Origin: Synechococcus sp. M44_DOE_062
GTDB taxonomy: Bacteria; Cyanobacteriota; Cyanobacteriia; Thermostichales; Thermostichaceae
NCBI GenBank assembly: GCA_015295985.1
Contig: DVDX01000003.1
Coordinates: 1-49,576, forward strand
DNA length: 49,576 nt
Direction of reading: 5' to 3'
Position numbers and translations under genes: made by a program. Shown here one piece after another: positions 40,590 through 45,399 of this stretch (position 1 is its first letter; the number at the start of each line of letters is the position of its first letter). The notes under the pieces were generated by a model. That model made no database searches, was not told where the DNA came from, and saw only the letters and a list, made by a program, of their open reading frames with translations.

Positions 40590-42284
40590 CTAGTTTCCAG
40601 GGGCAAGCCCAACTTGGGCAACGGCTTCAGCCAAAGCCACCTCACGGCTGTCCACAAACCGCTCTGGGGGCAGCGGCAGATGCAGGTTTTCCAGGCGCTG
40701 CCGGATCCGGCCCTTGGCCCCAACAATCCACACCTGTTTGCCCCGATCCAGGGCCTCGCGAATGGCATTTTCCAAGGATAGCGTTGCGGAGACGCCCAAC
40801 ATCGGCACATCCGACAAATCCAGCACCAAAGCTTGGCAGGAGGCCACCGCCTGGTGTTGGCGGGAAATGGCTTGGGAAACCCCAAAGATCATCGGCCCGC
40901 TCAGGTAAAACAGCAAGACCTGGCCGCGTCCCTGTCGCAACAAATCCCTCTCTTGCGGGGTGAGATCCACGGCGTCATCCGCATCGGTGATGGCTTTTAC
41001 CTCTTCGGAGTGGATCTCGCTGAGGCGTTGAATGGTGAGCAAGTTGGCCACAAACACCCCCACCCCTACGGCGGCGATGAGATCCACAAACACCGTCATG
41101 AACATCACCCCGTACATGATGGCAGCCCCTTTGAGAGAAAGCCGGTGGGCCCGTTTCAGGAAGCTCCAGTCGAGGATATCCACCCCCACCTTGAGGGCGA
41201 TCCCTGCCAGCACCGCCATCGGTATCCCTTGCGTGAGGGGAGCCGCAAACAGCACCACCATCAACAGGATAAGGGCGCGGGTGACGCCCGCCAGAGGGGT
41301 ACGCCCCCCCGACTGGATGTTCACCACCGTGCCCATGGTCGCCCCCGCTCCCGGCAACCCTCCCATGAAGCCGGAGACCAGGTTGGCGATCCCCTGCCCG
41401 ATCAGCTCTTGGTCGGAGTCGTGGCGGGTGCGGGTGAGGTTATCGGCAATGACTGCTGTCAAGAGGGTATCGATGCAGCCCAGCATCCCCAGCACCACCC
41501 CATCCAGCACCAGGTTGGCCAGGGAAGCAAAGGGCAACTGCGGCCACTGCAACTGCGGCAAACCGGTGGGGATAGGGCCAATGCGCCGCAAATCCCAATC
41601 GGCCATGAACAAGCTGGCCACCAGCGTTCCCACCAGCAAAGCCACCAACTGCGGCGGCACCACCCGTCGCCAGGGCTTGGGATAGCCAAAAAGGATGGCA
41701 AGCGTCAGCAGCCCCAGCCCCAGCTCTGGGATCTTGAGGTTGAGTAGGTAGGTCGGCAGGTTCTGCACCGCCCCGATCACTCCCCCCTGGCTGGCGTGGC
41801 CCAAAAGCGGCGGGATCTGCAGCAAAATCATGATCCAGCCGATCCCAGACATAAAGCCGGAAATAACGCTGTAGGGCATGAGGGTGATGTATTTACCCAG
41901 TTTCAGGGATCCAAACAGGATCTGAAACAAGCCCCCCAGCATCACCACGGTGAAGGCCGGCCCCAGCCCCTGCTCCGGGTAACGAGCTGTAACATTAGCA
42001 ACCACCGCCGTCATCATCACAGTCATCGGCCCGGTGGGTTCGGAGATGAGCGTGGGCGTACCCCCAAACAGAGCCGCAAAAAAGCCCACACACACTGCCC
42101 CGTATAGACCCGCCACCGGCCCTGCCCCCGAAGCCACCCCAAAGGCCAAGGCCATCGGCAAGGAAACAATCGCTGTCGTCAGCCCGCCGAAGAGATCCCC
42201 GCGCCAGTTGTCTAGGCTCAGACGTCGGTGCCAATCCAGAAATCTCCTGTTGCCCGACCGTTGTTCTTTCACTTGGCTCAGCAT
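40590..42284 (-). CDS. bicA: BicA-type Na+-dependent bicarbonate transporter (SulP family)
   Basis: A 564-residue SulP transporter: about 12-14 membrane segments (roughly 28-415) and a cytoplasmic STAS domain (about 435-560). It closely follows the BicA pattern, including LPMALAFGVASGAGPVAGL, FGGTPTLISEPTGPMTV, FGSLKLGKYIT, GAGATMGTVVNIQSGGRT, VGVDILDWSFLKRAH and, in STAS, LLFYLSGPMIFGV. BicA imports bicarbonate at high flux with lower affinity for the carbon-concentrating mechanism. An AT-rich promoter with a small inverted repeat lies upstream, beyond which is a broken KirBac gene. A sulfate transporter is the alternative, but the match to BicA is close along the whole length. Confidence 0.9.
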   Translation of the reverse strand: MLSQVKEQRSGNRRFLDWHRRLSLDNWRGDLFGGLTTAIVSLPMALAFGVASGAGPVAGLYGAVCVGFFAALFGGTPTLISEPTGPMTVMMTAVVANVTARYPEQGLGPAFTVVMLGGLFQILFGSLKLGKYITLMPYSVISGFMSGIGWIMILLQIPPLLGHASQGGVIGAVQNLPTYLLNLKIPELGLGLLTLAILFGYPKPWRRVVPPQLVALLVGTLVASLFMADWDLRRIGPIPTGLPQLQWPQLPFASLANLVLDGVVLGMLGCIDTLLTAVIADNLTRTRHDSDQELIGQGIANLVSGFMGGLPGAGATMGTVVNIQSGGRTPLAGVTRALILLMVVLFAAPLTQGIPMAVLAGIALKVGVDILDWSFLKRAHRLSLKGAAIMYGVMFMTVFVDLIAAVGVGVFVANLLTIQRLSEIHSEEVKAITDADDAVDLTPQERDLLRQGRGQVLLFYLSGPMIFGVSQAISRQHQAVASCQALVLDLSDVPMLGVSATLSLENAIREALDRGKQVWIVGAKGRIRQRLENLHLPLPPERFVDSREVALAEAVAQVGLAPGN

Positions 42285-42374: not shown

Positions 42375-42647
42375 TCAAGGATCCCCCTCCAAGTGAGGGC
42401 ATGGGGCTTGAGCCGGCAGGGTGGTATGAAAGTGGGAGTAATCCACATAGCGATGCCCATTGCTGTCCAGGTGGAGAATATCGGCAAATCGGTGGTTCCA
42501 GAGAATCTCATCGGCCAATTAGGAGTGGCGAGCATGGGTGGTTTGGGAAAAGGTATCGTCAATGCCGGTCAGGGTGATGATCAGCTCCGCTTGGCCCACC
42601 TGTAAATCTTGATCCGTGAGGCCGTAGAGAGAGCCACCGATGAACCA
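42375..42647 (-). pseudogene. C-terminal remnant of a KirBac inward-rectifier K+ channel
   Basis: On the minus strand one frame reads SLYGLTDQDLQVGQAELII, then LTGIDDTFSQTTHARHS, a TAA stop (42519-42521), LADEILWNHRFADILHL, and VDYSHFHTTLPA before a TGA at 42375-42377. This is the cytoplasmic C-terminal domain of bacterial Kir channels, where the stop replaces a position that is usually Tyr. The pore and N-terminal half are missing; upstream sequence (42648-42843) gives no recognisable continuation. A full gene would need about 300 codons; about 90 remain. Confidence 0.8.
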
Positions 42648-42843
42648 CTGAGCATGTCTCGCTGGAAGTCAGCCAGCCTTCACGAAGGGCAAATGGTAGA
42701 CTAGGAATACAAAACTTCTCTGATTAACTCAATCACTCTCAAATCACCCTCAGTCTGCCACGGTCAGGGTTTCCTTCTCGATAACCTTCCATGAACCCAC
42801 TGCGCCAAGGCCGACTGGGATCCCTTAACGATAACCCAACCCC
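42648..42843 (+). other. gyrA upstream region
   Basis: A 196-bp spacer between the KirBac remnant and gyrA. No gene seen. An AT-rich patch near 42700-42745 may contain the gyrA promoter. There is no purine-rich ribosome binding site directly before the gyrA ATG; a GGGATCCC octamer lies about 20 bp upstream. Confidence 0.5.
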
Positions 42844-45399
42844 ATGAGCGAGAACGAATCGACGGCGCGCATCATCTCCACCGATCTGCAGCGGGAGATG
42901 TCGCAGTCCTACCTGGAATACGCCATGAGCGTCATCGTCGGGAGGGCTTTGCCGGATGCGCGGGATGGCCTGAAGCCGGTGCACCGCCGCATTCTCTACG
43001 CCATGCACGAGTTGGGCTTGACGGCGGATCGCCCCTTTCGCAAGTGTGCCCGCGTGGTGGGGGATGTGATTGGGAAATACCATCCCCACGGGGATCAGGC
43101 CGTCTACGATGCGCTGGTGCGCATGGCTCAGGATTTCTCCATGCGGGAGCGCCTGGTGGATGGGCATGGCAACTTCGGCTCTGTGGACAACGATCCGCCG
43201 GCGGCCATGCGCTATACCGAGTGTCGGCTGACCGCCTTTGCCCAGGAAGCCCTGCTCCAAGATATTGACGCCAACACCGTCGATTTTGTCGGCAACTACG
43301 ACGGATCCCAGCAAGAGCCCCTGGTGCTGCCGGCGCGGATCCCGCAACTGCTCTTAAACGGTTCTTCCGGCATTGCCGTGGGCATGGCCACCAACATTCC
43401 GCCCCACAACTTGGGCGAATTGGTGGACGGCCTGATTGCCCTCATCCACAACCCCAACCTAACCAGCCTGGAGTTGATGCAGTGGATCCCAGCCCCCGAC
43501 TTCCCCACCGGGGCGCTGATCATGGGCCAAGAGGGCATCCGCGAAGCCTATACCACCGGGCGCGGCTCCATCACCCTGAGGGGGGTGGCCACCGTCGAAA
43601 CCCTCGAGCAGCGGGGCCGACCGGTTCGGGACGCCATCATCATCACTGAGCTGCCCTACCAAACCAACAAGGCAGCCATGATCGAGAAGATCGCCGAGCT
43701 GGTCAACGAGAAAAAGCTGGAAGGCATCGCCGACATCCGTGACGAGAGCGACCGCAGCGGCATGCGAGTGGTGATCGAGCTGAAGCGGGATGCCCAGGCC
43801 CAGGTGGTGCTCAACAACCTCTACAAGCAAACCCCCCTGCAGGCCAATTTCGGGGTCAACATGCTGGCCATTCTCAACGGCGAGCCGCGTACCCTGACCC
43901 TGCGGGATGCTCTACAAGCTTTCCTGGACTTCCGGGAGGAGGTCATTGAGCGGCGCACCCGCTACGAGCTGCAAAAAGCCGAAGATCGGGATCACCTGCT
44001 GCAGGGCTATCTCTTGGCTTTGGGGCAGTTGGATCGGGTGATTGCCCTCATCCGGGGAGCCGCCGATACCGCCACAGCCCGAGAGGAATTGCAGGCTGCG
44101 TTGGGCCTGAGCGAAGCCCAAGCCGACGGGATCCTGCAAATGCAACTGCGCCGCCTGACCGCTCTGGAAGCGGAAAAAATCCAGGCCGAGCACGAAGACT
44201 TGGTGAGGCAAATTGCCGACCTGCGGGATATTCTGGCCCGCCGAGAACGGGTGATGCAGATCATCAGCGAGGAGCTGCAGCAGCTCAAAGCCCGCTTTGC
44301 CAGCCCGCGCCGCTCCCGCCTCTGTCTGGAAGATGGGGAGCTGAGAACGGATGATCTGATTGAAAATCGGGAGACGGTTATCTTTCTAACCGAGCAGGGC
44401 TACATCAAGCGCATGGGCCTTGAGGAGTTCCAGGTGCAGGGGCGAGCCACCCGCGGCAAAGCTGGCGCCCGCATCAAGGAAGACGATGCCATCGAACAGG
44501 TTTTTGCCTGTCGCAGCCACGACACCATTCTCTTTTTCACCAATCGAGGGGTGGTCTATACCCTGCCTGCCCACCAGATCCCCCAAGGGAGCCGTACCGC
44601 CCGTGGCAGCGCCATCGTTCAGTTGCTGCCGCTTACCCGGGAAGAGCGGGTTACTTCCATGGTGCCCGTGAGCAAGTTCAGCGAGGACGAGTATCTGGTG
44701 ATGCTGACCCGCGGGGGCTACATCAAAAAAACGGCCCTCAGCGCCTTTGCCAATGTGCGCTCCAACGGCCTGATCGCCATCTCTCTGGAAGAAAACGACG
44801 AACTGCGCTGGGTGCGCCGCGCCCGCTCCAGCGACGATGTGGTGATGGCAACCCGCCAAGGCATGTCCATTCGCTTTCGGGCGGATGACGAGCAACTGCG
44901 CCCTCTGGGACGGGCCACCCGGGGCGTGCGGGCCATGACCCTCAACTCCGACGATAACATCGTCAGCATGGATATTATCTCTGCCGAGTCGGTGATGGCT
45001 GCCGAACAAGAGGGGGAGAGGCTAGCCAACCCTTGGGTGCTGGTGATCACCAAAGAAGGGCGGGGCAAGCGCTCGGCCATCGACCATTTCCGCCAGCAAA
45101 ACCGAGGTGGCAAGGGGGTGATCGCCACCAAGTTCCGGCAGGACTCCGATGAACTGGCGGCCTTGCGCATCGTCAATGCCGAGGACGAGATCCTGTTGGT
45201 GACCGCCAGGGGCATTGTTATGCGCCAGTTGGCCAAGGCCATTCCCACGCAATCTCGCGAGGCGACAGGGGTGCTGGTGCAACGCCTGGATCCCGAAGAC
45301 AGCATCGTGGGGGTAACGGTGGTGCCTGCCTCTTTTGTCGGGGATCCCACCGCAGCCGAGGAAGAGCCCACAGATGAACCCTTGGAAGAAAGCTGTTGA
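42844..45399 (+). CDS. gyrA: DNA gyrase subunit A (type IIA topoisomerase)
   Basis: An 851-residue topoisomerase subunit that cuts and rejoins DNA during ATP-driven negative supercoiling. The N-terminus ([52 protein letters not shown]) leads to catalytic Tyr124 in AAMRYTE. A coiled-coil tower and a C-terminal beta-propeller follow; the GyrA-box-like segment [10 protein letters not shown] supports gyrase rather than topoisomerase IV. No ribosome binding site is evident before the ATG. The acidic tail [14 protein letters not shown] is typical. Confidence 0.94.

Follow-up and report, generated by a model that had tools for sequence, protein, structure and literature searches.

A very probable KirBac-type potassium channel pseudogene between bicA and gyrA in Synechococcus sp. 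M44_DOE_062 and the varied decay of this gene across its genus

Introduction

The closest described counterparts of the locus analyzed here are the KirBac channels, inward-rectifier-type potassium channels that include KirBac3.1 and the protein of PDB entry 1p7b, which we take to be KirBac1.1. A cyanobacterial member, KirBac6.1 of Synechocystis (slr5078), is reported to complement K+-uptake-deficient E. coli (PMC13099474). Our literature search for KirBac pseudogenes returned no relevant title, that for an inward rectifier potassium channel in Thermostichus found nothing, and that for Thermostichus pseudogenes had a sole match, on two-component systems.

We analyzed a 49,576-nucleotide stretch of contig DVDX01000003.1 from Synechococcus sp. 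M44_DOE_062, referred to here as the window. A preliminary description, made from the sequence alone, had proposed a KirBac pseudogene on its minus strand between bicA and gyrA. Our analyses support this proposal, and we regard the remnant in the window as very probably a pseudogene derived from an inward-rectifier-type potassium channel gene of the KirBac family.

Results

Both Kir motifs cited in the preliminary description fall in one minus-strand frame with a TAA (42521-42519) between them. When the minus strand from 42668 to 42375 (97 codons plus stop) was translated with internal stops read as X, it matched positions 87 to 162 of the 174-position IRK_C profile (Pfam PF17655) at 61 bits (E 1.5e-16), against a cut-off of 22.5, with only the second half of the domain represented. 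The Pfam match, a six-frame search, and tblastn together place this cytoplasmic-domain remnant at 42402..42629 on the minus strand. A six-frame IRK_C search of the whole genome found no match other than this locus (58.1 bits, E 1.4e-15), and the 47-amino-acid open piece past the TAA, taken alone, still reached 29.9 bits. By tblastn, the remnant aligned with residues 232 to 304 of the intact channel of a relative, G007, with 84% amino acid identity across 73 residues. We rejected chance similarity on the basis of the IRK_C score, the synteny described below, and the absence of IRK_C matches from a six-frame search of 14 control genomes (0/14). A plasmid collection searched with the intergenic region gave no match.

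The window copy contains neither the two membrane helices nor a GYG selectivity filter, as judged by frame reading and leader comparison; the filter of the intact orthologs in G005 and G007 is SIGYG. At the position of the TAA, the three relatives whose copy aligns well enough carry a sense codon, and this single stop, found in the window copy and absent from the remnant of the nearest relative, G004, may stem from a sequencing error.

As an anchor for orthology we used the divergent neighbor, a gyrA-like open reading frame of 851 amino acids at 42844..45399 on the plus strand, whose name follows from similarity and from the preliminary description and whose orthologs in the other five genus genomes are 92 to 96% identical in amino acid sequence. 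Across the six genus genomes, which include the window's own (G000), we observed four states of the kir locus. G005 and G007 each have an intact 305-amino-acid KirBac gene adjoining gyrA, with IRK_C, Ion_trans_2, and IRK domains, and among solved structures the G007 protein was closest to KirBac3.1 (E 1.7e-79). The same half-domain remnant, with a common deletion, is retained in the window and in G004, which gyrA places nearest to it (96% amino acid identity; third-position divergence, 0.158). In G006, about 43 bases of kir persist, of which 38 are identical to those of G007, and G003 gave no kir match. An intact channel gene at the same place in two relatives, together with the frameshifting deletion and the stop in the window copy, supports the pseudogene assignment. 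By eye, the breakpoints of G003 and G006 in the alignment differ from the junction of the window and G004. At least three separate kir deletions are likely among the six genus genomes, although G003 could alternatively have inherited the first deletion and dropped its last part afterwards. The kir gene has decayed repeatedly within the genus.

We located the deletion junction of the window copy at 42629..42637 (minus strand) from the six-genome alignment, the comparison of leader matches with shuffles, and tblastn. In both the window and G004, the old GTG start codon (42648-42646 in the window) is followed by about four codons and then by the sequence from about codon 232 of the 305-codon gene; the 42375-42647 interval given for the pseudogene in the preliminary description agrees well with this placement. 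The reading frame differs across the junction, leaving the old GTG out of frame with the remaining part. Upstream, the leader and start-codon region is retained at 42638..42710 (minus strand; 42710 is approximate), as indicated by its match to the G007 leader. The 60 bases preceding the window remnant matched the leader and first codons of G007 at 34 of 39 bases (a score of 34, with 24 as the highest among 200 shuffles), and the corresponding G004 bases did so at 39 of 47 (score, 49; best shuffle, 28). The remainder of the G007 coding sequence scored only 16 against the same 60 window bases, with shuffles scoring up to 26. These matches substantiate the claim that the pore half is lacking. With G005 as the reference, neither the leader nor the coding match exceeded the shuffles. 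By eye, an AGGAGGT precedes the GTG start in the intact G005 and G007 genes, and this Shine-Dalgarno-like motif is not preserved in the window copy. Assembly error was rejected as the cause of the deletion, the junction being identical in a second genome, G004.

The G004 leader (L025 6620-6870) contains an extra stretch that is mostly missing from the window. Parts of it matched 40 places in G004, counting the stretch itself (of 117 candidates there, 40 were scored), 21 in G003, 12 in G000 (one being the window's own leader), 5 in G005, 2 in G007, and 1 in G006, and its end pieces lie about 1.2 kb apart at other places. From its sequence, this stretch resembles a MITE-like element that derives from an insertion element.

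We then compared the two remnants. Over 71 codons, the window and G004 copies differ at 15 sites, distributed as 2, 3, and 10 over codon positions 1, 2, and 3 (the chance of at least 10 of 15 falling at position 3 is 0.0085). Divergence at third positions was 10/71 (14.1%), matching that of bicA (14.2%) and close to that of gyrA (15.8%), and only 5 of 142 sites at positions 1 and 2 had changed. In a four-taxon codon model of 73 codons, a short alignment under a simple model, omega was 0.125 on both remnant tips, omega = 1 was rejected for the two tips together (LRT, 13.1; p = 3e-4), and the tips did not differ in omega from the other branches (p = 0.68). Neutrality was rejected for the G004 branch alone (p = 0.017) and was not rejected for the window branch alone, for which the test had little power (p = 0.25, or 0.28 for codons 14 to 73). 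In the 150 mostly noncoding bases past the remnant, we counted by eye only 6 differences between the window and G004; low divergence there arises without codon constraint, though this stretch may hold the bicA promoter. Together with the short alignment and the simple model, this calls for caution in reading constraint from the remnants.

If the deletion had been inherited by both genomes from a common ancestor, the G004 remnant would be expected to have drifted, and the apparent constraint there is a mismatch with that expectation. The mismatch could be explained by a young or repeated deletion, by recombination with intact alleles, or by a fragment that is still under selection. The last of these explanations holds that, in the G004 lineage, selection still maintains the pore-less C-terminal Kir fragment as a small protein, for example a binding or interfering partner, and that the fragment was under selection in the window lineage until its stop arose. 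The G004 frame is indeed open over 97 codons without an internal stop, parsimony places no amino acid change on the G004 branch within codons 14 to 73, and neutrality was rejected there with p = 8.6e-4, for a range of codons picked after the data had been seen. However, this fragment has no good start, as its frame begins after a TAG and the old GTG lies in another frame; no ribosome site is evident by eye ahead of the in-frame starts; half a beta-sandwich is unlikely to fold by itself; and a stop interrupts the window copy. We consider a selected fragment very unlikely; if one did exist, a channel gene would have been reduced to a free-standing piece of the cytoplasmic gate, and the window copy would represent its later death.

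The other explanations refine the pseudogene reading rather than compete with it. They posit a deletion of young age in the two lineages. Either the same breakpoints would have been used twice or, in co-living populations, recombination over short tracts would have moved the junction or restored the 3' part with sequence from intact alleles. Codon-constrained divergence since the window and G004 split is what a young deletion would leave, and the few bases shared by both ends, seen by eye, might permit re-use of the breakpoints. Mixing in short blocks is documented between Synechococcus species of Yellowstone springs, with typical blocks reported at about 70 bp in one species and about 30 bp in another (PMC12755884), although the population of the window may differ. 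On the other side, the 50 bases around the junction carry 7 differences between the window and G004. This rate is similar to that at third positions in bicA and gyrA and shows no trace of a recent joint transfer. A second deletion with identical breakpoints is, on prior grounds, a rare event, and the intact kir alleles compared here all come from outside the sub-clade of the window and G004. We give a deletion that is young in both lineages about an even chance of being right, and young or repeated deletion and short-tract recombination, taken together, are the most likely explanation of the mismatch. These findings bear on the earlier suggestion that the loss was recent. A substitution pattern that indicates protein constraint during most of the period after the two lineages separated agrees with it, but the junction held in common with the nearest relative argues for an older deletion.

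The downstream neighbor of the remnant (40590..42284, minus strand) encodes a BicA-like SulP transporter of 564 amino acids. The BicA family NF050096 of NCBIfam was by far its best family at 866.9 bits, although the curated cut-off of 880 was not reached; its best solved relative was PDB 6ki1 (E 8.6e-150), and it has Pfam Sulfate_transp and STAS domains. The preliminary description raised the possibility that channel and transporter were once neighbors under shared control. Adjacency was confirmed in the intact locus of G007, where kir and bicA lie on the same strand with a gap of 125 nt, and bicA adjoins gyrA on its kir side in five of the six genus genomes. We scanned for promoter-like and terminator-like sites and found one and none, respectively, in the window (shuffle means, 0.5 and 0.5) and none and two in the intact locus (shuffle means, 0.8 and 1.6). 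Both terminator-like sites fall inside kir, leaving the kir-bicA gap of G007 without one, as would suit a functional pair under joint control. However, bicA lies about 138 kb from the intact, gyrA-adjoining kir of G005 and persists in G003 though kir is gone. Furthermore, tblastn of BicA and GyrA against the flanks of 157 other kir loci recovered neither protein at E 1e-6 (0/157), and raising E to 1 added a single weak match to gyrA (E 0.42) and none to bicA; in a control set, the same search recovered both where expected. These loci comprised the best 80 matches of one search plus 77 from others; an organism may recur across the two sets, G001 and G002 are included (as L074 and L147), and the flanks spanned about 6 kb (80 loci) or about 8 to 9 kb (77 loci), shorter at contig ends. 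Because of the 0/157 result and the distance in G005, shared control is unsupported beyond adjacency within the genus, and we consider it highly improbable that kir and bicA were once a functional pair.

The window as a whole is also rich in the palindrome GGGATCCC, of which its 49,576 bases hold 56 copies versus 1.4 expected from base composition, and it holds no copy of GCGATCGC. GGGATCCC resembles a variant of the HIP1-type highly repeated octamer.

IRK_C matches were found in six of the eight family genomes searched and in 76 of 386 genomes phylum-wide, indicating a gene of generally patchy distribution. We built a tree of 84 distinct Kir proteins, for which 88 of 161 loci had passed a motif filter. 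In this tree, the G005 and G007 proteins group with those of L074 and L147, with support of 97/88 at the joint fork; we took the latter two as loci of G001 and G002, although the automatic group count labelled G005 and G007 only. A single branch holding the Kir proteins of the family is consistent, at the level of sequence, with an old resident gene that may have been inherited within the family.

Filter motifs at the 161 Kir loci comprised 66 SIGYG, 47 TIGYG, and 2 TVGYG among 115 motif matches, with repeats possible. Two Kir-like proteins, the two inspected of 13 targets, L226 8668-9540 (minus strand; IRK_C, 31.4 bits) and L229 8072-9191 (plus strand), have an IRK_C match and, by eye, no GYG at the filter place. 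They come from genomes G320 and G276 of one other cyanobacterial genus (g56, family f20) and are possibly filterless Kir paralogs. Elsewhere among the cyanobacteria, L228 (G071:C1:4287503-4287643; 28.5 bits) and L230 (G274:C1:1688675-1688902; 22.6 bits, against the cut-off of 22.5) each show a short IRK_C match that contains internal stops, and these two are possibly further kir pseudogenes.

Discussion

Our results suggest a stepwise course for the decay of kir in the window lineage. An internal deletion took out about codons 5 to 231 of 305. The lost codons specify the two membrane helices and the selectivity filter between them with the initial half of the cytoplasmic domain, and the part that remains is out of frame with the old GTG start. 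The TAA, which the sister remnant lacks, would then have broken what remained. Two other lineages of the genus probably lost the same gene through differently bounded deletions, and two kept it intact. Since the window copy has no pore, no working reading frame owing to the frameshift at the junction, and an internal stop, it most likely yields no channel now.

All six genus genomes encode one TrkH and two other Ion_trans_2 matches, and such other likely K+ routes may account for the loss of kir being tolerated. In Synechocystis, deletion of kirBac6.1 is reported to have left growth unchanged under the high-salt and osmotic conditions tried (PMC13099474).

The locus offers a clean view of how one ion-channel gene was lost stepwise and repeatedly within a single cyanobacterial genus: next to gyrA, the gene is whole, halved, reduced to a scrap, or gone. 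In the window and G004, a common deletion stands in tension with divergence of a protein-like kind, and this could be used as a small test of how recombination over short tracts obscures the past of dead genes.

Overall, we view the window copy as a KirBac pseudogene of an ordinary kind and as one of the several forms in which this gene has decayed within the genus. Like other bacterial pseudogenes formed by internal deletion and nonsense mutation, it combines a deletion, a frameshift, and a stop with intact orthologs in relatives; it differs from them in that its remnant and that of G004 share a junction yet have diverged as if protein-constrained. KirBac6.1 (slr5078), to which the gene is likened by description as a cyanobacterial KirBac, is intact and functional in Synechocystis, unlike the window copy. 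The likeness to KirBac3.1 (PDB 7n9k and 1xl4) is carried by the intact G007 ortholog, which aligns with it over residues 27 to 301, whereas the window copy differs from KirBac channels in that it retains just the final quarter of the gene, which a stop interrupts, and lacks a pore.
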